Assembly (NCBI RefSeq): GCF_026004115.1
Contig: NZ_BPIM01000001.1
Coordinates: 372,001-436,000, forward strand
Direction of reading: 5' to 3'
Origin: Meiothermus sp.
GTDB lineage: Bacteria > Deinococcota > Deinococci > Deinococcales > Thermaceae
DNA: 64,000 nucleotides
Made by a program: the position numbers and the translations under genes. This document shows positions 29,827 through 43,408 of this stretch, one piece after another. The notes below the pieces were generated by a model, which was given only the letters and a program-made list of their open reading frames with translations, was not told where the DNA came from and ran no database searches. Positions within the stretch are counted from its first letter, which is position 1. Every line of letters begins with the position of its first letter.

Positions 29827-32598
29827 TCAGGAGCCTGGCTGCGTAAACCCATTTCGCTTTTCAGAGGGCCTGATCTCGTCCAGGGCAGCCTCCAGGAAGG
29901 TCTTCTCCAACCGAATGACCTCGCCAAAACGCAGGTACACCAGCCGCACCTCGGGTTCTATCTGCCAGGCCTGCTGAACGGCAGCCAGGTAAACCCCAAG
30001 CTGGAAGTAATACTGCTCGGGCCGCACCTCCTGGTCGGTCTTGTAGTCTTCCAGGTACCACTGCTCACCCACCCGGTAGAGCCGGTCTATTACGCCTTGC
30101 CAGACGGTTGTGCCCAGGGGGAGGGCTACCGCGAACTCGGGGTAGTCCTCGTCGCGGGGCCAGGGGAGCTGTGTGCCCAGAAGCCCCTGGTAGCTTTGCA
30201 GCAGGGTGTTCACTTCGTCCATGATGCCGGCCCGCTCGTCGGGGTCATAGGGAAACATCACCTCCTGGGCCTCGAGGTTGGCCAAATGTGCGGGGTTGTC
30301 GGGGTGCCAGTTCTGCCCGATGGCGTAGTGTACCAGCGTTCCGATGGCCCTGGCCCGGCCCGGCAAGGTCTCCCCTTCTTCGGGGTCCGGAAGCGGCAGG
30401 GGTTCGGCCTCAAGGCGCTTGTAGGCCGAGGGCGAGAAGAGCGGGGGAAAAGGCTCGATCTCGAAGCGGGCGGCCACCCAGGGTGCGGATTCGAGCGGTT
30501 CGGACGAGCCAATGACCGGGGTTGGCGGTATGGGCTGGTAGCGCCAGGTCTGTAACGTGAGTTCGGGTCGGTTGTAGCGCGGGCTGTAAGGCCCCAGGTT
30601 CAGCGCCTCCAGCACCCTCACCCAACCCTCGGGCCTGTCCTTGCTCACGCTACCGGTCAGCAGCAGGGTGTCGCGGGCCCTCGAGGCCGCCACGTAGAAG
30701 AGGCGGTAACTCTCCTCCTGCTCGAGGGCTTTGACCTGCTCTTTGAATACCCCAAACTGCGGGGTATCCGGCAGGGCCACCCATTGCGTCAGGTGGGCAG
30801 CATCGTCCTCCTTACGTCCCAGGTAAAGCGGTCGGGCCTGGTGGGTGTTCTTCCGGCCCAGGTCAAACACCGCCACCACCGGCCACTCCAGCCCTTTGGC
30901 GCGGTGAATGGTCAGGATTTGCACGCCCTCGCCCGCCTGCGGCACATCGCCCGCGTCGGCCTGGCGGGAGAGCATCTGAAGCCGCTCCAGCAAGCCCTCC
31001 AGGCTCTGTGGCGGGCGCGAGGCGAAGTAAAAGAGCAGGGCGTCCACATTTTCCCGCGCACGCGGCTCCAGAAACTCGGGGTAGGCCCGGCCCGCCATCA
31101 GGGGTGCGCGGATCAGGTACTTGAGCGCCTCGAGCGGAGCCTCCAGGCGCAGCCGGGCCTGAACCTGTCGCAGACGCGTATACACGCTAGGCCACCGGAG
31201 TTCCAGGGCTTGCAGGGGCGCACTCGATTGCAGCACCTGCTCGATTTGGGCCAGCTCCAGGGGCTTGAGGGGCCCCTCTTCGGTGTGCTGTCCAAAGGGG
31301 CTTCGCAAAAATACCGCCAGCGAAAGCCCCTGGGGGTTGAGGGCGGCCCGCAAGGTGTGGTAAAGGTCGCGCACTTCCTGTCGCTCGTAATAGCCCCGCC
31401 CTTGCAGGAGCACGTAGGGCACCTGGGCAGCTCTGAAGGCTTCTTCCAGAAAGCGCACGCTTTGGTACGAACGCACCAGCACGGCCATCTGGGAAAAAGC
31501 GGTCTGGCTTGATAAATCCCGCAGCCGGTGTGCCAGCACCCAGGCTTCCTGCTGCCGCAGTTCGTCGAGGGGGCTTTCGCCCACAACCCAGTGAATCTCC
31601 AGCCGCCCCTGCTCGGATCGAGTACTTTCCACCGGCGGAGCTTCCTCGGGGCCAAAACCCTGTCCCTGAGCAGCTAGATTCTTGGTCAGGTGGTTCAAAA
31701 AGCGCACCAGGGTCTGGCTGTGCCGGTAGCTCCGGGCCAGCGGCGGCAGAAGCTGGCCCTCCCGCAGGGCCTTGCGAAAGACCCCTACATCGGCATCGCG
31801 GAAGGCGTAAATGGACTGCTTGGGGTCGCCAACCATCTCGATGGGCAGTCCGGCCTGCTCGAGGGCCTCGAAAAAAGCCCCTTGCAGGGGGTTTACGTCC
31901 TGGTACTCGTCTACCAGGAGCACCCGTACCCGCTCGAGCACCCGCTCCAAAGCGCGGGGGTGGCGGGTAAGTTCCAGGGCGCGGCGCTCGATTTCAGAAG
32001 GCGAGAGCAGGTTGGCCCCCAGGCGGGCCTCGTAAGCGGCATATACCGCCGCATAAACCCTCAGCAAGCGCTGGTTGACCTCCCCTTCGGCAGGCTCGAA
32101 GACTTCGGCCTGAGAGCGCCTGGAAAACAGGTGCAGGAGGGGTTCGGTCAGGTCGTCGGTGGCCTCGCCGAAGAGCAGATGGCCCGGATCCTGGGCCAGA
32201 TAGCGCAGGGTGTTCCACTCTTCCTCGAACAGGGCCAGAGCTTCCCAATCGCCCAGCATGGAGAAGTCGGGGTCGAGGTGCAACAGGGGGGCCGCAAGGC
32301 GCAGGCACTGACCCATGAAGCCGTGGATGGTACTCAGCGTAGCCCCCGTAATCTCGCGGGCGGCCTCCTGGAAAGCAGGCTGGCTTGCCGCCGAGGCTTC
32401 AAAATCCAGATGCTGCCCCTTGGTGAGCACATCCTCGATGGCCTGCCCCACCCGCACCCGCAGTTCGTCGGCGGCCTTGCGGGTAAAGGTCACACCCGCG
32501 ATACGGCGCAGGGGCGTACCGGAAGAAATAAGCTCCAGGTAGCGCAAGACCAGGCTGGCGGTCTTACCGGTTCCGGCGGAGGCGACACGAACTTTCAC
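29827..32598 (-). CDS. addA: AddA-type helicase-nuclease
   Basis: This UvrD-superfamily helicase with a C-terminal PD-(D/E)XK nuclease is the motor subunit of an AddAB double-strand-break resection enzyme. In 923 residues, Walker A is ASAGTGKT (6-13), motif II is VDEYQDVNPLQ near 230, and motif VI is FYVAASRARDTLLL near 650. The nuclease domain lies at the end, with D838 in GVIDR and D851-Y-K853 in EDYKT. The most likely start is the GTG at 32598, which puts Walker A near the N-terminus as in relatives; upstream codons belong to a doc-like remnant. It is shorter than Bacillus AddA (about 1230). Confidence 0.85.
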   Translation of the reverse strand: MKVRVASAGTGKTASLVLRYLELISSGTPLRRIAGVTFTRKAADELRVRVGQAIEDVLTKGQHLDFEASAASQPAFQEAAREITGATLSTIHGFMGQCLRLAAPLLHLDPDFSMLGDWEALALFEEEWNTLRYLAQDPGHLLFGEATDDLTEPLLHLFSRRSQAEVFEPAEGEVNQRLLRVYAAVYAAYEARLGANLLSPSEIERRALELTRHPRALERVLERVRVLLVDEYQDVNPLQGAFFEALEQAGLPIEMVGDPKQSIYAFRDADVGVFRKALREGQLLPPLARSYRHSQTLVRFLNHLTKNLAAQGQGFGPEEAPPVESTRSEQGRLEIHWVVGESPLDELRQQEAWVLAHRLRDLSSQTAFSQMAVLVRSYQSVRFLEEAFRAAQVPYVLLQGRGYYERQEVRDLYHTLRAALNPQGLSLAVFLRSPFGQHTEEGPLKPLELAQIEQVLQSSAPLQALELRWPSVYTRLRQVQARLRLEAPLEALKYLIRAPLMAGRAYPEFLEPRARENVDALLFYFASRPPQSLEGLLERLQMLSRQADAGDVPQAGEGVQILTIHRAKGLEWPVVAVFDLGRKNTHQARPLYLGRKEDDAAHLTQWVALPDTPQFGVFKEQVKALEQEESYRLFYVAASRARDTLLLTGSVSKDRPEGWVRVLEALNLGPYSPRYNRPELTLQTWRYQPIPPTPVIGSSEPLESAPWVAARFEIEPFPPLFSPSAYKRLEAEPLPLPDPEEGETLPGRARAIGTLVHYAIGQNWHPDNPAHLANLEAQEVMFPYDPDERAGIMDEVNTLLQSYQGLLGTQLPWPRDEDYPEFAVALPLGTTVWQGVIDRLYRVGEQWYLEDYKTDQEVRPEQYYFQLGVYLAAVQQAWQIEPEVRLVYLRFGEVIRLEKTFLEAALDEIRPSEKRNGFTQPGS

Positions 32599-32680
32599 AG
32601 GTGTTTGTCGGTGCAGTCCTGGTTGCAGGCAATGAGCAAAAAGACTCGAAATCCCTCGATACTGAGATAGCCTGCAGCCA

Positions 32681-32827
32681 TCATAAAGCAGACTCCAGAG
32701 CCGATTTGTCCCGGACGCCCTCCAGTCCTCCATAGCGAACCAGGGCATTGCGGTGGAGCACTTCAACCAACCCCCCTGTGGGGTAACGGTGTCCCTTGCA
32801 ACGATAAAAGAAACTAGCGCTGGGCAA
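32681..32827 (-). pseudogene. Truncated Doc/Fic (death-on-curing) toxin fragment
   Basis: One minus-strand frame encodes 48 residues that include VEVLHRNALVRYGG followed by EGVRDKSALESAL, the conserved N-terminal helix region of death-on-curing toxins. It then stops at TGA, before the HPFxDGNKR Fic active site, which I did not find in any frame downstream. The frame overlaps the end of the small gene at 32814-32987 (possible TTG start at 32827), the usual antitoxin-toxin layout. The remnant was probably cut off by a deletion that joined it to the addA upstream region. Confidence 0.65.
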
Positions 32828-33950: not shown

Positions 33951-36362
33951 CTAGCCGGTTCTACCCTCGCGGCACATATCTTTGACCCCACAGCTACGGC
34001 AACGAAAGCCGGGGTTGGGTGTTATCTCCCCGGCTTGGTGGCTTTTGTGCACTACTTGAACCTTCTGCAAAAGTTCCTCGAGCTTTTTCCAACCCGCTTC
34101 GACCGGCTTGTCGTAAACCCGCACCGGCTCCCCCAGCACCGGCCAGGCCCAGATGTGCACCCGGCGAATGCGCCCCTTGAAGGCCGAAAGCAGGTAGCCG
34201 GCAGCCCAGCGCTCACTCCAGCGGTCACGTACCTGCTCCTCGGCCTCCTTGGGAGGGGTTTCAGGAGCTACAAAGCGGTAGATGTGGGCCTCGCTGCCCT
34301 TGCGCAGCACTCCGTCCAGGTAGGCTTCCAGCCCCTGGCCCTGTAGCCTGAAGCCCAGGCTCAGCTCCCCCAGAAGACTGTAGTGATGGCGCATCCAGCC
34401 TTCGGCCTGGGGAAACTGCTGGGATAGGGCCTGAAGCCGTGCCGGTACAAGTTTATCGGCCTTGCGCAGCTCGCGCACCCAGGTCTGCCACCACGGGGGT
34501 GCCTCCGGCTTTGGGATTAGCTGCTGGGCCCAGAACTGAAAGCTGCATTCGCTATAGCGACGCAGGTCTTCTACCCGGGGTGGCCCCAGGTTCACCAAGC
34601 CCAGGGGGGCCTGGTAGCCCTCGGAAGGGGCCGACTCCAGCAGGCTGGCCAGGGGCAGCCTGGGCAGATAGGGCGGCGGGTGCCTGCCCACCAGGGCCGG
34701 CTCGGGCTCGAGGGGCCCCTCCTGGCTGGCCTCGGGGTAAGTGATGATTACCTCGTCGGCGCGGGCTCGGAGTTCCTGCAAAAGCAAGCGATCCCGCCCC
34801 AAAAAACGCTTGGGCAAGAGGCCGCCAGCTTGCCGGAGGGCTTCCTCCAAACCCATGCGCCATTCCTCGGGCACGAAGTAGTCTTCTTGTTCGCCGGTAC
34901 TGTAAGCCCCCTCCACCGCGTAGCTCAGGTAAAGCTTCTTCCAGCGCTGCCCTGAGGCCAGGGTAGGCGTAAGCAGGGCCACCCCCCCTGGCGGACGGTG
35001 CGGCTCGTAGGTCTCGGCCAGCAAGGCCGCCCACCAGTGACGAAAATCGGGGCCGGTGGCGATGCGGTGAGCCTCCAGGGCCCGCTCCATCAGGGTGGCC
35101 CGGCGCGGGCTGTGGCGCACCTCCGGCAGGGAGTCGAGCAGTTCTTCGGCCCAGGCCAGCGAGGACTGCTGGGAGATGGCACCGCGGTTGTCGAAAGCCG
35201 ACCCATCCTCGCCAGGGGACTTGAGGCGCGAAAGCCAGGCCATCCACAGGTCGTAAAGCCCCAGTTCTGCCGCCAGCCGGGCAATGGCGGCATTGCCCAC
35301 CAGGCTGCGCTCGAGGGCCGCCCGGCCCAGGGGGGCCAGGTCGGGCACGGACAGCAGGCGAGAAGGGGTGGGGTAGTCGGGCAGCTCCAAAAGCTCGAGC
35401 AAGAGCCGCCCCTCGGGGGTGTCGGCGGCGCTGCGGGGGCGGTAATCCACCAGGGGCAGGCCGTACTCGTCGGCCAAAGTGAGCAGGGCCGGAATCCGGG
35501 ACTCCGGCGCCACCACGGCCACCTCGAGGGCCTTATAACCCAAAGCCAGGTCGCGCTTGAGGGCCCGCATCACCCAGCGGGCCTCGCTCACCGGGTTCTG
35601 GGCGCGGTAGATTTGCGTCTGGGTAGGGCGGGGGTGCAGCGCCGCATCGGGCGAAAGGCCGGGCGGGGCCTCCGGCAGCCCAACCCAGACCGGCACGTGC
35701 ACCGAAAGCGCCTGCAACAGTCGAAGTTCCAGTACACCCAGTTCGCGGAAGCCGTCCACCACCACCAGGTCGGGCTCGAGGCCGATGGGCGCGGGCTTGC
35801 TGCGCGAAGAGGCGGACTCCACAAACTGCACAGGCCTCGTCTGACGCTCGAGCTGCACCGGTCCTTGCTCCAGCAAGGCCAGCGCCCCGGCGCGAAAGTC
35901 GTCATAGTCCCAGCGACCCCAGACGGTTTTGAGTTCCTCGTAGCGGGCGTAGACCTTTTGCAAGCGCCGGGCCTCGGGGCCCAGCGGGGGTATCTGCTGG
36001 GGCGCCACCCCGTTGCGCTTGGCCTCGGCAATGACGCGGGTAAACAAGCGGGCCTCGCCCGGGCTGGGCAGGGGGCCTTCGCCAGATATCAGCGCCTCCC
36101 CCACCAGCGCCACCCGGCTTGGCCCGGTCAGAATGGGTTTTAGGCCAAAGCTGGCAGCCAGCAGCCGATAGTAAAGCTGCTGCGAGGTGAGCACCTCGAG
36201 GCCCAGCACCGCGCCGTTCTCGGTTGCGCGGCGGTAAACGTAGGCTTTTTGCGCCGGCAAGCAGACCCACCAGACCCGCTTGCGCTGTTGCAGGTAGGTG
36301 TACGCGAGCTCGAGCAGGCGGGTGGTTTTGCCGGAGGCCGGAGGGCCGACAATCAGATGCAC
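33951..36362 (-). CDS. addB: AddB-like subunit with a degenerate nuclease site
   Basis: This is the partner of AddA: an inactivated helicase-like chain that scans for recognition sequences, plus a C-terminal iron-sulfur nuclease domain. In 803 residues, Walker A GPPASGKTT is near 6-14. Four cysteines fit the AddB cluster: C606, C788, C791, C797. The nuclease core looks damaged: D683 (YLDG) remains, but the usual DYK is replaced by YRF at 695-697. Resection may thus use only the AddA nuclease. TATAGT lies 6 nt before the GTG start, a leaderless pattern. addA is 1.35 kb further along the same strand, separated by the divergent aminotransferase and the broken toxin module. Confidence 0.8.
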   Translation of the reverse strand: MHLIVGPPASGKTTRLLELAYTYLQQRKRVWWVCLPAQKAYVYRRATENGAVLGLEVLTSQQLYYRLLAASFGLKPILTGPSRVALVGEALISGEGPLPSPGEARLFTRVIAEAKRNGVAPQQIPPLGPEARRLQKVYARYEELKTVWGRWDYDDFRAGALALLEQGPVQLERQTRPVQFVESASSRSKPAPIGLEPDLVVVDGFRELGVLELRLLQALSVHVPVWVGLPEAPPGLSPDAALHPRPTQTQIYRAQNPVSEARWVMRALKRDLALGYKALEVAVVAPESRIPALLTLADEYGLPLVDYRPRSAADTPEGRLLLELLELPDYPTPSRLLSVPDLAPLGRAALERSLVGNAAIARLAAELGLYDLWMAWLSRLKSPGEDGSAFDNRGAISQQSSLAWAEELLDSLPEVRHSPRRATLMERALEAHRIATGPDFRHWWAALLAETYEPHRPPGGVALLTPTLASGQRWKKLYLSYAVEGAYSTGEQEDYFVPEEWRMGLEEALRQAGGLLPKRFLGRDRLLLQELRARADEVIITYPEASQEGPLEPEPALVGRHPPPYLPRLPLASLLESAPSEGYQAPLGLVNLGPPRVEDLRRYSECSFQFWAQQLIPKPEAPPWWQTWVRELRKADKLVPARLQALSQQFPQAEGWMRHHYSLLGELSLGFRLQGQGLEAYLDGVLRKGSEAHIYRFVAPETPPKEAEEQVRDRWSERWAAGYLLSAFKGRIRRVHIWAWPVLGEPVRVYDKPVEAGWKKLEELLQKVQVVHKSHQAGEITPNPGFRCRSCGVKDMCREGRTG

Positions 36363-36399: not shown

Positions 36400-36936
36400 C
36401 TACCGAATCGCGGGCTCTAGCACAGGAAACCGCACCGGCGAACGCTGGTAAGCCGCCAGCCAACGGGGGTCTGACAGGGGTTCTAAGTTCCGCCCCAACA
36501 CCAGCACCCCCACCACCCGGCCCTGGTGGGTTAGAAAGCAGCGGTAGCCCCTGGGCTCACTCACATACCAGTTGCCCAGATTGAGGGTCTGGGTCACCCC
36601 CTCAAAGCGTCGGGCAAGCTGGTTGCGCAATCGCAGGGCATCCTGCACGGGGCGATCAACCACCACCACCGCGATGTCCTCGAGGCCCAGCGGCACCGGG
36701 GTCAGGTCTATGTTTACCGTGAGGCGCGACACCGGCACGCCGTCTGCCGCCAGCACCACCCGCAGCAAGAAGCGCTGGGGCGCCGCCCGCTCGGCATAGG
36801 CAAACTGGGGGCGCAGGTTCTGGAAAAGGGTCATGCAGCGTTCCATCACCAGTGGATCGCTCGGTTGAGCCCAGCCCAGTGCCCCAAGGCTCCAGACCCA
36901 CAGGGCTATGGTCGGCGGAATGGCCCTGCGCCACAC
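36400..36936 (-). CDS. Exported protein of the copper monooxygenase operon, function unknown
   Basis: This 178-residue protein has a signal peptide (hydrophobic about 6-22, cleavage near GWA-Q). I chose the GTG at 36936 because GGGGAGAAG lies just upstream; an open frame continues further up into the monooxygenase gene but lacks a good start. The mature part is a strand-helix-strand pattern with VVVVDRPVQDALRLRNQLAR and a GNWYVSEPRGYRCF segment with two cysteines overall (MERCM and YRCF). No known domain is recognised. It begins 11 nt after the monooxygenase stop, so it is co-transcribed. Confidence 0.6.
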   Translation of the reverse strand: MWRRAIPPTIALWVWSLGALGWAQPSDPLVMERCMTLFQNLRPQFAYAERAAPQRFLLRVVLAADGVPVSRLTVNIDLTPVPLGLEDIAVVVVDRPVQDALRLRNQLARRFEGVTQTLNLGNWYVSEPRGYRCFLTHQGRVVGVLVLGRNLEPLSDPRWLAAYQRSPVRFPVLEPAIR

Positions 36937-36946
36937 GGCTTCTCCC

Positions 36947-38323
36947 CTACTCCCGCACCCCGAAGAGCGAGCCCAGGCACATCTCGTCGGTAGTCCCCTC
37001 ACCCCAGGTCATATAGCGGGGCGGCAAGATCTCCCCACCCGGGCCAGGGATGGCCGACTTATTGTCGTGGACGCAGGTAACCCGCACCCGGTCGCCCTGG
37101 CGCAGCCGGAGGGGGGTCTGGTACCAGTACTCGCCCTGCCACTGGAAGTTCCACTGGGGAATGTAAAAGAGCGTCCGGGCCCCCGCCGTGCCGGGGTTGA
37201 CCTCCACCTTGAACTCCACCCCCCGCAGGTGCATGTGGGCGGTCACGCCGTAGACCTCCATGGCGCTTTGGGTTGTCCAGTCGCAGGAGGTGGCCTGACG
37301 GCTGCCATCGCCCACGTTGCGCTGGGCGTAGCCCTCGATGGAGGTGTTGCACAGCAGGTGAATCCAGTCGGCAATAAAGCCCAGCTCGGTTCTGGCTCGA
37401 GCGTACTCGCGGGTGCACTGTTCCCCGGTCAGGCCAGGCGGGCATTTGATTTCCACCGGGGCGGCCAGGGTCATGCCCACCAGGCGCTTGAGCTGCACCC
37501 CTTGGGGGGCCAGGTACAAAGCCATCTGGGTGGCGTCGGGGTTGGCGCCCGAGGCGGTGTTGTAGTGCACCTGCATCACCACCCGGCTGCCGGCCCGCAG
37601 GAGCCGTCCCGTGCCCTCCGGCAGCAGGGTGGCTCCTCCACCAGGCACCCAGAAGCCCAGTATGCCGCCGATGCTGCGGGGGTCGCTGCTCAGGCCCGGC
37701 CCGCCAAAACACTTCCAGCCGGGGCCGGGCTCGGTGCGGTCTTTGGCCAGGGCGGCCTCCACCATATCGGGGCCGATCAGGAACAAGATCACGTGATGCA
37801 CGCTGCGCTTGTCACCCGGAATAATCTTGTAGCCGGTCATGTAGGTGTCGCGGTCGAACGTTGCAGGCATCAGGAAGCAGCGATAATCGTCCTGCAAGGC
37901 ATCGTCGGGGGTGTAGGGGGGGTTCAGTGTGGCCACCAGGTCAGGCTGTGGAGCGGGCACGGCTGCTTTAGCAGCTACCGGCCTGGGGTCACCCAACGGC
38001 GCACCTGCCTGGGCCCAGGCAATCAGGGCAGCCTTGGCGCTGGCGGAAAGCTTACGCTCGTCCTTCAGGGGGGGTGTGCCCGCGCCGGGGGGCCAGGGCG
38101 GCATCCGGCCCTGCTTCACCGAGTCGGCAATGGCCGCAGCCATGTTGCGGGCCCAGCGGGCATCGTCGAGGGGAAAGGGCGCAATACCCCCTTCGGCATG
38201 ACAACCCGCGCAGTTGGCTTGCAGAATCTCGGCCACTTCCCCGTAGTAGGTAGGGGGTTGGGCGGGCCCGGCTGCAATGGAACCCAGGGCCAAAAAAATC
38301 AGCAGCGGCAAACGTTTCGGCAT
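36947..38323 (-). CDS. Cytochrome c fused to a PHM/DBH-type copper monooxygenase
   Basis: This 458-residue exported protein has a signal peptide at about 1-21. Residues 25-110 form a c-type haem domain with C38-A-G-C41-H42 and a probable Met ligand (M74 in GRMPPWPP). Residues 125-458 match the copper type II monooxygenases (peptidylglycine monooxygenase, dopamine beta-hydroxylase). CuH-type ligands H176, H177 and H253 are present, together with CuM-type ligands H363 and H365 (AHMHLRG) and M448 (DEMC). All six copper ligands are thus in order. The haem could deliver electrons in place of ascorbate (inference). The Sco gene lies 2 nt upstream in the operon. The substrate is unknown. Confidence 0.8.
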   Translation of the reverse strand: MPKRLPLLIFLALGSIAAGPAQPPTYYGEVAEILQANCAGCHAEGGIAPFPLDDARWARNMAAAIADSVKQGRMPPWPPGAGTPPLKDERKLSASAKAALIAWAQAGAPLGDPRPVAAKAAVPAPQPDLVATLNPPYTPDDALQDDYRCFLMPATFDRDTYMTGYKIIPGDKRSVHHVILFLIGPDMVEAALAKDRTEPGPGWKCFGGPGLSSDPRSIGGILGFWVPGGGATLLPEGTGRLLRAGSRVVMQVHYNTASGANPDATQMALYLAPQGVQLKRLVGMTLAAPVEIKCPPGLTGEQCTREYARARTELGFIADWIHLLCNTSIEGYAQRNVGDGSRQATSCDWTTQSAMEVYGVTAHMHLRGVEFKVEVNPGTAGARTLFYIPQWNFQWQGEYWYQTPLRLRQGDRVRVTCVHDNKSAIPGPGGEILPPRYMTWGEGTTDEMCLGSLFGVRE

Positions 38324-38325
38324 AT

Positions 38326-38907
38326 TTACCTCAGCAGTTGGGCGATTTCTTCCTTCAGCTTAGCGGTGGAAAGGCGGCTGACCCCATAGAGCATCCGTAC
38401 CAACCGCCCCTGGGCGTCCAGCAGGGCCATGGCGTCGGTATGAAAAATCAGCCGCCCACCGGGGGCCAGGTTGTACTCGACGCTGGCGGCCTCGGCAATG
38501 GGGCGGATGGCTTCGGGCCTGCCGGTCAGGCCCTGTACCGGCGCAAAACCCCGCAGATATTTTTGCAGCGTTTGGGGGGTGTCGCGCTCGTCCACGCTCA
38601 GGAGCAGTAACCGCAGGTGGGGTGGGGCGCCCAGGGCCTCGTAGGCGGGTAGCAGGCGGCCCAGCGTGAGGGGGCAGGCGTCGGGGCACTGGGTGTAGCC
38701 AAAGAGCACCACCGCCGGGCCCTTAGGCGGAAACACAAACGCCTTGTTCTCGTGCGAACGCAGTTCCACGCTGGGGAGCGCTCTGGGCGGCTTGAAGTCG
38801 GCCACCCCCGGCCCGGAGGCAGGCAGATAATGCCCCCCGTGCGCCCAGACCAGGCTAAAAAGCCCCAAAAGAAAGATGCTGCGTAGAGGCGGTTTCACCT
38901 TCACCAT
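38326..38907 (-). CDS. Sco/SenC-family copper chaperone
   Basis: This 193-residue thioredoxin-fold protein has an N-terminal signal/anchor (about 8-22). The copper-binding CxxxC is C74-P-D-A-C78 (FGYTQCPDACP), with the third ligand H156 in RLIFHTDAMALLD. Sco proteins deliver copper to, or reduce, the CuA site of cytochrome oxidase. Here the gene is the first of an operon with a copper monooxygenase, so the chaperone may serve that enzyme. An ATG one codon upstream (38910) is an equally good start. The 180 bp ahead, to the helicase gene, holds nothing recognised. Confidence 0.88.
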   Translation of the reverse strand: MVKVKPPLRSIFLLGLFSLVWAHGGHYLPASGPGVADFKPPRALPSVELRSHENKAFVFPPKGPAVVLFGYTQCPDACPLTLGRLLPAYEALGAPPHLRLLLLSVDERDTPQTLQKYLRGFAPVQGLTGRPEAIRPIAEAASVEYNLAPGGRLIFHTDAMALLDAQGRLVRMLYGVSRLSTAKLKEEIAQLLR

Positions 38908-39089
38908 CATGACCGGAACCAACCCAAAAGAGAATCGGATAACGCAGGGTGTAATGCAGCGGAAGTCGGAGGACGCAGTTTTCAAGTCGGGCTGGCCCCT
39001 GCTTGTCTTCGGCCAAAACACGACTTCCCCGGGTTCCTGCCTCTTTAGGCTAGCACCGCTCACTGAAACCAGGCTGAAGCCAAAGATAC

Positions 39090-41563: not shown

Positions 41564-43408
41564 TCACGCAAACCGGTATAGCTTCCCACCCAGCGTGGCC
41601 ACAAAAAGGGCCCCCCGGTAGGGCAGGGGCGGCACCTGGATGGGGCCCAGGCCGGTGGCCTCGAAAAGCAGACGCCCGCTCTGGGTGTCTACGCCCAGCA
41701 GCCGGCCTTCCTCGGTGCCCAGGTAGAGCACCCCGTGGGCAATGGAGAGCCCCGCCGTCACCTGGCCGACCTCGAGCTTCCACACCTCGTCGCCGGTTTT
41801 TTGGTTCAGGGCGTACAGTGTGCCGGCCCAACTCGCAGCGTACAGATGCCGGTCGTCCAGGGCCGGTGCGCCCCAAAGCTCGCCCTCGAGGTCGAAGCTC
41901 CACTGCACCTCGCGGGTCAGAGGATCGAAGGCGTGGATTTCTCCGGCCCAGGTGGGAATGAACAAGAGCCCCCCCCGGGCCGGCAAGGCCGTGTGCACCG
42001 CCCCTGTCTCCACCTTGTAGCGCAGGTGGCCGCTCAGGGGGTCGAGGGCATACAGCCAGCCGCCCTCGCTGGCCACAAACAACAAACCCCGGTAGAGCGT
42101 GGGCGAGGCCGAAAGCTCGCTCCCGGCCTGGAAACCCCAGCGCAGGGTGCCGCTGGCCTCGAGGGCATACAAAAAGCCATCGCGCCCAGCCAGGTAGATG
42201 AGGTCGGCTACCAGGGGTGCGGCGGTAATCTCGGCACGGGTAGGAAAACTCAGGATGGGCCGGCCGGAGAGCGACATCCCGGTCAGGCGGCCATCCCAGG
42301 CCGCCACATACACCCGCTCCTCGGTCACCACCGGCGGGGCCGAGACCTCGTCGCCTAGGCGCTGGCGGTAGACCGAGCCATCGGTCAGGTCGATGCGGGC
42401 GATGCCCTGCCCCGCCCCCACCCAGAGGCTGCCCTCGCGGGCTACGAGCTCTCCCGGCCAGGCCACCTCGCCCGAAAGGTCGTAGGTGCCGCGGAGCTCG
42501 AGTTTTTCAGGCCGGGCCGGGCCGGTGGGGTAGTGCCCGCTGCGGCTGGCCCCCGCCCGGGGCGTGGCCGAGAGGCTCTCGCGGTAGCGGCGCAGAGTTT
42601 CTTCCAGCACCGCGTGGGCCGTGGCCGCATTGGCCGGGCGTTCGCCGGGGGTTTTTTGTAAGAGCGCCTGAATCAGGCTAGCTACCTCGTCCGGAATGGC
42701 CGGGTTCAGGCTCTGGGGCGGCCGGGGAGGCTCGTAGACGTGCTGGTAGAGCACCGACTGGTCGTTCTCTCCCTCGAACAGGGGCTGGCCGGTAAAGGTG
42801 CGGTAGAGCACCGCGCCAAAGCTGTACAGGTCGGCCTGGGGAGTAAGGGAGAGGCCCTTGGCCTGTTCGGGGGCCATATACTCAGGGGTGCCCACGGTAA
42901 TGCCGGTGCGGGTAAAGTGACGGCTTTCCTGCATCAGGTAGGCCAGGCCAAAGTCCATGACCTTAGGCTGGCCTTCGGGCGTAACCAGGATGTTGCGCGG
43001 GGTCAGATCGCGGTGGATCACGCCCCGGTGGTGGAGGTGCCCCAGGGCTTCCAGCACCCGCGCCGAGGCCGTGAGCAGGCGCAGGCCCTCCAGGCCATCT
43101 TCGAAGGGGCCCAGGCGGTCGTAGCTACCGCCCTCGACCAGCTCCATCACGAAGTAGGTGCGCCCCTCTTCCTCACCTAGATCGAATATCTGCACCACGC
43201 CCGGGTGGGAGAGCTTGGACAAAGCCTTGACCTCGCGGAAAAAGCGGTTGCGCTCGCTGGGGTGCAGGTAGGCGTGCAGAATCTTGACAGCTACCGGGCG
43301 ATCCATACGCTCATCGGTAGCCCGCCAGACCTCGGCCATGCCCCCCTCGCCCAGGGGGGCCACAAGCCTGTAGCGTCCGGCCAGTTTCACCTTATCCATG
43401 GTACTCAT
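41564..43408 (-). CDS. Ser/Thr protein kinase with PQQ-type beta-propeller
   Basis: The 614-residue protein pairs an N-terminal Hanks-type kinase domain (about 10-275) with a C-terminal propeller (about 315-614). Kinase motifs are the glycine loop GEGGMAEVW, K42 (VAVK), HRDLTPRN with D134, DFG with D152, and GTPEYMAPEQ. The usual HRDLKP lysine is threonine. The propeller has repeated W/Y-LYALD, GLLFVASEGG and GELWGAPAL blades, like BamB/PQQ repeat proteins. There is no transmembrane helix between the domains and no signal peptide, so the sensor would be cytoplasmic, unlike many kinase-propeller proteins. A second start (ATG at 43399) is possible. Confidence 0.9.
   Translation of the reverse strand: MSTMDKVKLAGRYRLVAPLGEGGMAEVWRATDERMDRPVAVKILHAYLHPSERNRFFREVKALSKLSHPGVVQIFDLGEEEGRTYFVMELVEGGSYDRLGPFEDGLEGLRLLTASARVLEALGHLHHRGVIHRDLTPRNILVTPEGQPKVMDFGLAYLMQESRHFTRTGITVGTPEYMAPEQAKGLSLTPQADLYSFGAVLYRTFTGQPLFEGENDQSVLYQHVYEPPRPPQSLNPAIPDEVASLIQALLQKTPGERPANAATAHAVLEETLRRYRESLSATPRAGASRSGHYPTGPARPEKLELRGTYDLSGEVAWPGELVAREGSLWVGAGQGIARIDLTDGSVYRQRLGDEVSAPPVVTEERVYVAAWDGRLTGMSLSGRPILSFPTRAEITAAPLVADLIYLAGRDGFLYALEASGTLRWGFQAGSELSASPTLYRGLLFVASEGGWLYALDPLSGHLRYKVETGAVHTALPARGGLLFIPTWAGEIHAFDPLTREVQWSFDLEGELWGAPALDDRHLYAASWAGTLYALNQKTGDEVWKLEVGQVTAGLSIAHGVLYLGTEEGRLLGVDTQSGRLLFEATGLGPIQVPPLPYRGALFVATLGGKLYRFA

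Follow-up and report, generated by a model that had tools for sequence, protein, structure and literature searches.

A PHM/DBH-type copper monooxygenase with a fused c-type cytochrome, encoded beside a divergent Sco protein in Meiothermus

The window, the whole stretch of 64,000 nucleotides that was analysed, stems from a Meiothermus genome of 3.35 Mb and carries three consecutive minus-strand genes, encoding a divergent Sco copper chaperone, an exported fusion of a c-type cytochrome with a PHM-type copper monooxygenase, and a small exported protein. The sco reading frame ends 2 bp ahead of the PHM start codon, and the small gene opens with a GTG at 36936, 10 bp past the PHM stop. The PHM gene and its neighbours recur in the same order in related Meiothermus, and the PHM protein is 97% identical to that of M. 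hypogaeus DSM 23238. In the order of transcription, the features are:

38326..38910, minus strand: divergent Sco copper chaperone (PF02630, E 1.1e-18, 67.9 bits against a cut-off of 22.8)
38674-38688, minus strand: Sco CxxxC, aligned with canonical Sco copper ligands
38440-38442, minus strand: Sco His, likewise aligned with a canonical Sco copper ligand
36947..38323, minus strand: exported cytochrome c - PHM-type copper monooxygenase fusion, 458 aa
38261..38323, minus strand: signal peptide, about residues 1-21, read from the sequence (KR, hydrophobic run, AGPA)
38198..38212, minus strand: haem c attachment motif CAGCH, residues 38-42 (PF13442, 31.4 bits, cut-off 27)
38093..38104, minus strand: MPPW, residues 74-77, an MPP following CxxCH, with the likely axial Met74
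37793..37798, minus strand: CuH ligands H176 and H177, conserved in 92/92 homologues and aligned to HH of rat PHM
37565..37567, minus strand: CuH ligand H253 in a QVHY motif, conserved in 92/92 and aligned to QVHY of PHM
37283..37444, minus strand: helical insert with four cysteines, residues 294-347, separating the two PHM subdomains, from the alignment, with helices in the model
37229..37237, minus strand: CuM ligands H363 and H365 (HMH), conserved in 92/92 and aligned to HTH of PHM
36980..36982, minus strand: CuM ligand M448 in a DEMC motif, conserved in 92/92 and aligned to DEMC of PHM
36400..36936, minus strand: small exported protein, 178 aa, regarded as a neighbour outside the system

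An earlier note had read CxxCH and six copper ligands in one exported chain, and we found the motif together with H176, H177, H253, H363, H365 and M448 at exactly the residue numbers it gave. Pattern-seeded scans provided a set of 92 homologues, a sample rather than a census, from at least seven phyla, with members in Deinococcota, Actinomycetota, Myxococcota, Acidobacteriota, Planctomycetota, Bipolaricaulota and Fraseribacteriota and in proteobacterial MAGs. Only 16 of the 458 positions are invariant across this set, and they include all six ligands; the naive chance of six named positions all falling within those 16 is about 6e-10, so that the ligand pattern is far from chance. The invariant histidines are the five ligand histidines only; H322 and H419, the remaining two in the PHM part, vary. 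Q251, two residues before the CuH histidine, is Gln in 89/92 homologues, and the core cysteines C149, C205, C417 and C449, which we take to pair as in PHM (C149/C205 and C417/C449), are kept in 91/92.

Searched against solved structures, the profile of 57 homologues matched rat PHM (2e-12) and human DBH (3e-11), with the HH, QVHY, H-x-H and DEMC motifs of PHM all in register. The window protein alone scored just under the Pfam cut-offs (22.6 versus 23 bits for PF03712, 22.1 versus 30 for PF01082); 47-49 of the 57 homologues matched PF01082 and PF03712 at E<=0.001. The AlphaFold2 model (pLDDT 90.7, pTM 0.87) showed the PHM catalytic-core fold of two beta-sandwich subdomains and aligned with PHM and DBH at Z 21-22.5 over about 255-280 residues. 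Foldseek placed PHM and DBH, and nothing else, in the top ranks, and VIA-align scored the model at Z 22.5 against DBH (280 residues, 3.0 angstrom) and Z 22.4 against PHM, with Z values of 18-22.5 for DBH and PHM and 8.6 for the next fold, PNGase F. Structure prediction, which the earlier note had named as able to refute its reading, thus at the fold level did not refute a PHM-type copper monooxygenase, an assignment that the invariant ligands and profile matches bear out as well. Filing the window protein under the PHM/DBH-type copper monooxygenases is therefore sound; that it holds copper and haem, the direction in which electrons move through it, its activity as a hydroxylase and the class of its substrate are what we infer.

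Textbooks describe PHM and DBH as animal enzymes that draw their electrons from ascorbate and serve peptide-hormone amidation and noradrenaline synthesis. Rat PHM (PDB 1PHM, 1OPM, 1SDW) shares with the window protein the two-subdomain fold, a CuH site of three histidines, a CuM site of two histidines and a methionine, two core cysteine pairs and the QVHY and DEMC motifs. The window protein differs in adding an N-terminal cytochrome c, where the animal enzyme uses ascorbate, and a cysteine-rich insert between the subdomains. This insert (C294, C303, C325 and C347) is found in Deinococcota and Actinomycetota members and is replaced or missing in Myxococcota-type ones. DBH (PDB 4ZEL) likewise combines the catalytic core with an additional N-terminal domain, but there it is a haem-less DOMON, accompanied by a dimerisation domain, whereas the window protein lacks a dimerisation domain and carries a class I cytochrome c. 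A characterised bacterial PHM-type enzyme or cytochrome fusion was not found in the open-licence literature.

The N-terminal region matched the cytochrome family PF13442, and DOMON gave no Pfam match there up to E 1. Both marks of a class I c-type cytochrome are present, with CAGCH as CxxCH and Met74 as the axial methionine, and an MPP follows CxxCH in every cytochrome domain examined, usually at a spacing of 32 residues, which therefore points to a Met/His haem. The haem domain described in the earlier note thus holds up as a fused c-type cytochrome suited to electron transfer, and the Meiothermus genome also contains genes for cytochrome c maturation.

Among the 92 members, 48 carry the cytochrome fused, seven have it as a separate gene and 37 have none in the reading frame. 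At the seven unfused loci, all in Deinococcota (M. granaticius-type G006 and G012, as well as G055, G056 and G057), the cytochrome gene immediately precedes the PHM gene or lies one gene further upstream. These loci form one clade (SH-aLRT 91), indicating a single split event after which the pair was kept together. For the loci that were examined closely, a frameshift was rejected as the source of the separate cytochrome, given that their PHM reading frame has its own signal or anchor and that the split forms are one clade. At one locus (L111:5255-5965, G057), an exported 237-aa reading frame with no Pfam match lies between the cytochrome and PHM genes.

The 37 members free of a haem domain, mostly from Actinomycetota, keep every copper ligand; haem is thus not essential to the chemistry of the family, and another donor must exist in these members. 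In four haem-free loci read (L035, L049, L059, L064), no CxxCH gene was adjacent to the PHM gene. The same 37 members give some weight to a different role for the cytochrome, which might dock the enzyme to the respiratory chain, sense redox or be structural while another reductant donates to a PHM-type hydroxylase. We consider this unlikely, if worth keeping in mind, since at all seven unfused loci the cytochrome gene has remained adjacent or close to that for PHM, and the conserved axial methionine fits electron transfer rather than gas sensing. Taking the Met/His cytochrome and the gene linkage together, the fused haem as electron donor is the best reading and, judging by sequence, haem likely replaces ascorbate as the electron source. 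The haem-fused, haem-separate and haem-free forms amount to a natural experiment on this donor role.

A haem domain feeding a secreted copper monooxygenase is known from the cytochrome domain of cellobiose dehydrogenase and its partner, lytic polysaccharide monooxygenase. The haem-to-copper electron feeding of that pair is the working principle proposed here, although the folds are unrelated, the haem is b-type rather than c-type and the copper site is another one. The N-terminal DOMON of DBH has the same fold as the haem domain of cellobiose dehydrogenase (PMC4846438), which would make an interesting parallel to the cytochrome of the window protein.

The two coppers of PHM are separated by about 11 angstrom, and ascorbate provides the one reducing equivalent that each of them uses (PMC6123673). 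For the window protein, we propose that a Sec signal would direct the fusion across the membrane. On the far side, haem c would be joined to CxxCH by the cytochrome c maturation machinery and, in Meiothermus, the neighbouring secreted Sco would assist copper loading. The respiratory chain would then reduce the N-terminal cytochrome, whose Met/His haem would pass electrons to CuH (H176, H177, H253), and CuM (H363, H365, M448) would bind O2 and hydroxylate a C-H bond of a small, non-peptidylglycine molecule. We put the probability that the protein is an exported PHM/DBH-family copper monooxygenase with its own electron-supply module at about two in three.

An alternative to the proposed substrate class is that the protein performs true PHM function and amidates the C termini of secreted peptides. 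While PHM and DBH are its nearest relatives in sequence and fold, Arg240, Asn316 and Tyr318 of PHM, the residues that hold the peptide carboxylate, align with T361, L450 and S452 of the window protein. Among the 57 profile members, position 450 is Leu in 55, the main residues at position 361 do not include Arg, and position 452 is variable. With the peptidylglycine-binding residues of PHM replaced, this PHM/DBH-type enzyme is unlikely to be a peptide-amidating one; we rejected amidation as a candidate function and leave it a very small probability.

The Sco protein shares with Sco1/SenC the Sco domain, the CxxxC motif and the distal histidine, but it is divergent, linked to phm and, in place of a membrane anchor, has a predicted cleaved signal and a mature HGxH. 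Cleavage is predicted directly before HGGHYLPASGPG (HGGH, 38830-38841), with HGTH in the sister genus, and this N-terminal two-histidine pattern is conserved in eight genomes. The mature N-terminal histidine and the second histidine at position 4 may possibly form an extra copper site.

A canonical Sco is encoded elsewhere in each of the 12 Thermaceae genomes tested, including those without phm. The divergent one occurred in these genomes only beside phm (G000, G001, G005, G007, G013) and was absent from phm-less G009, G016 and G041 as well as from PHM-bearing G003, G004, G006 and G012. The earlier note had called the Sco dedicated, which is correct insofar as Meiothermus and one sister genus have a second, divergent Sco whose gene occurs only beside phm, but does not extend to the family, where a Sco near PHM is missing from most other homologues, Calidithermus included. 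One further neighbour emerged from a Sco-family profile search: in L083, from an uncultured actinobacterium, the gene directly upstream of a haem-free PHM encodes a Sco lipoprotein (PF02630, E 4e-17). This actinobacterial pair is independent, so two or more origins of the Sco-PHM link are probable. Sco proteins usually serve cytochrome oxidase (COX), so the locus might be read as an assembly factor for COX biogenesis. With a canonical Sco elsewhere in every genome tested, phm-less ones among them, and both COX1 genes of the genome far from the sco-phm locus, we rejected this candidate and regard it as highly improbable.

The small exported protein had been counted by the earlier note as part of the operon. 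We instead regard it as a resident neighbour, because it is kept in Thermaceae without PHM: it is encoded in five Meiothermus genomes that lack PHM and, matched more weakly, in most of genus g4 (probably Thermus). It was rejected as a partner on the further ground that G016 (L095) keeps the order helicase, small gene and AddB, with about 0.1 kb from helicase to small gene and no sco-phm between them. Its structure model (pLDDT 78) gave no significant fold match. The phm gene is accessory, being present in 9/18 Meiothermus genomes. It lies beside the small gene and AddB in all three of the genera g1, g2 and g3, and was therefore probably ancestral in these and lost from some Meiothermus, a direction that is itself inferred. 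In the window, the AddB-like reading frame (33951-36362, 803 aa, no Pfam match) has a RecB-like helicase-nuclease (29827-32766) close by. A gene at 41564-43408, three genes upstream of phm, encodes a protein kinase joined to a PQQ-type beta-propeller (PF00069 with PF13360/PF13570).

No substrate or pathway gene was seen near phm in the window, and the neighbourhoods in other phyla gave no recurrent substrate clue beyond genus-level synteny. The lack of such a gene in the window and the accessory distribution of phm would suit a PHM fold serving some other copper-redox role (peroxide, nitrite, copper stress or copper oxidase) with no organic hydroxylation. This is improbable in our view: the full CuH and CuM sets, M448 included, are invariant and Q251 is nearly so, which fits a monooxygenase, and a single-copper stress function would need only one site, not both.

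More broadly, bacterial PHM-type hydroxylases that need no ascorbate could be a widespread class. Driven by a cytochrome c domain or partner of their own, they would act outside the membrane on a substrate class new to PHM/DBH, and in Meiothermus they would be loaded by a specialised secreted Sco with an HGxH second copper site; we see the chances of this wider picture as evenly balanced. A branch in bacteria whose cytochrome is built in or linked by gene position would reveal a further electron route to a dicopper hydroxylase and would bear on the origin of the animal enzymes. It would also supply a heat-stable catalyst of C-H hydroxylation, perhaps one that can be powered by electrochemistry.

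Several observations concern the distribution of the family. A plasmid search for PHM returned one remote match; the record, listed under Nonomuraea gerenzanensis, is 11.85 Mb long, which suggests a chromosome rather than a plasmid. A Myxococcota-like cytochrome-PHM gene lies in a record titled Klebsiella pneumoniae MAG (L065:7826-9224), which is probably mislabelled. In a Fraseribacteriota MAG (L023:7853-9897), two PHM-type reading frames, both without a cytochrome, stand in tandem, the second aligning with the C-terminal part only. Finally, an uncultured Deinococcota family (G054, G055, G056; L107-L122) shows an unusual paralogue expansion, with 5-8 PHM or cytochrome matches per genome.
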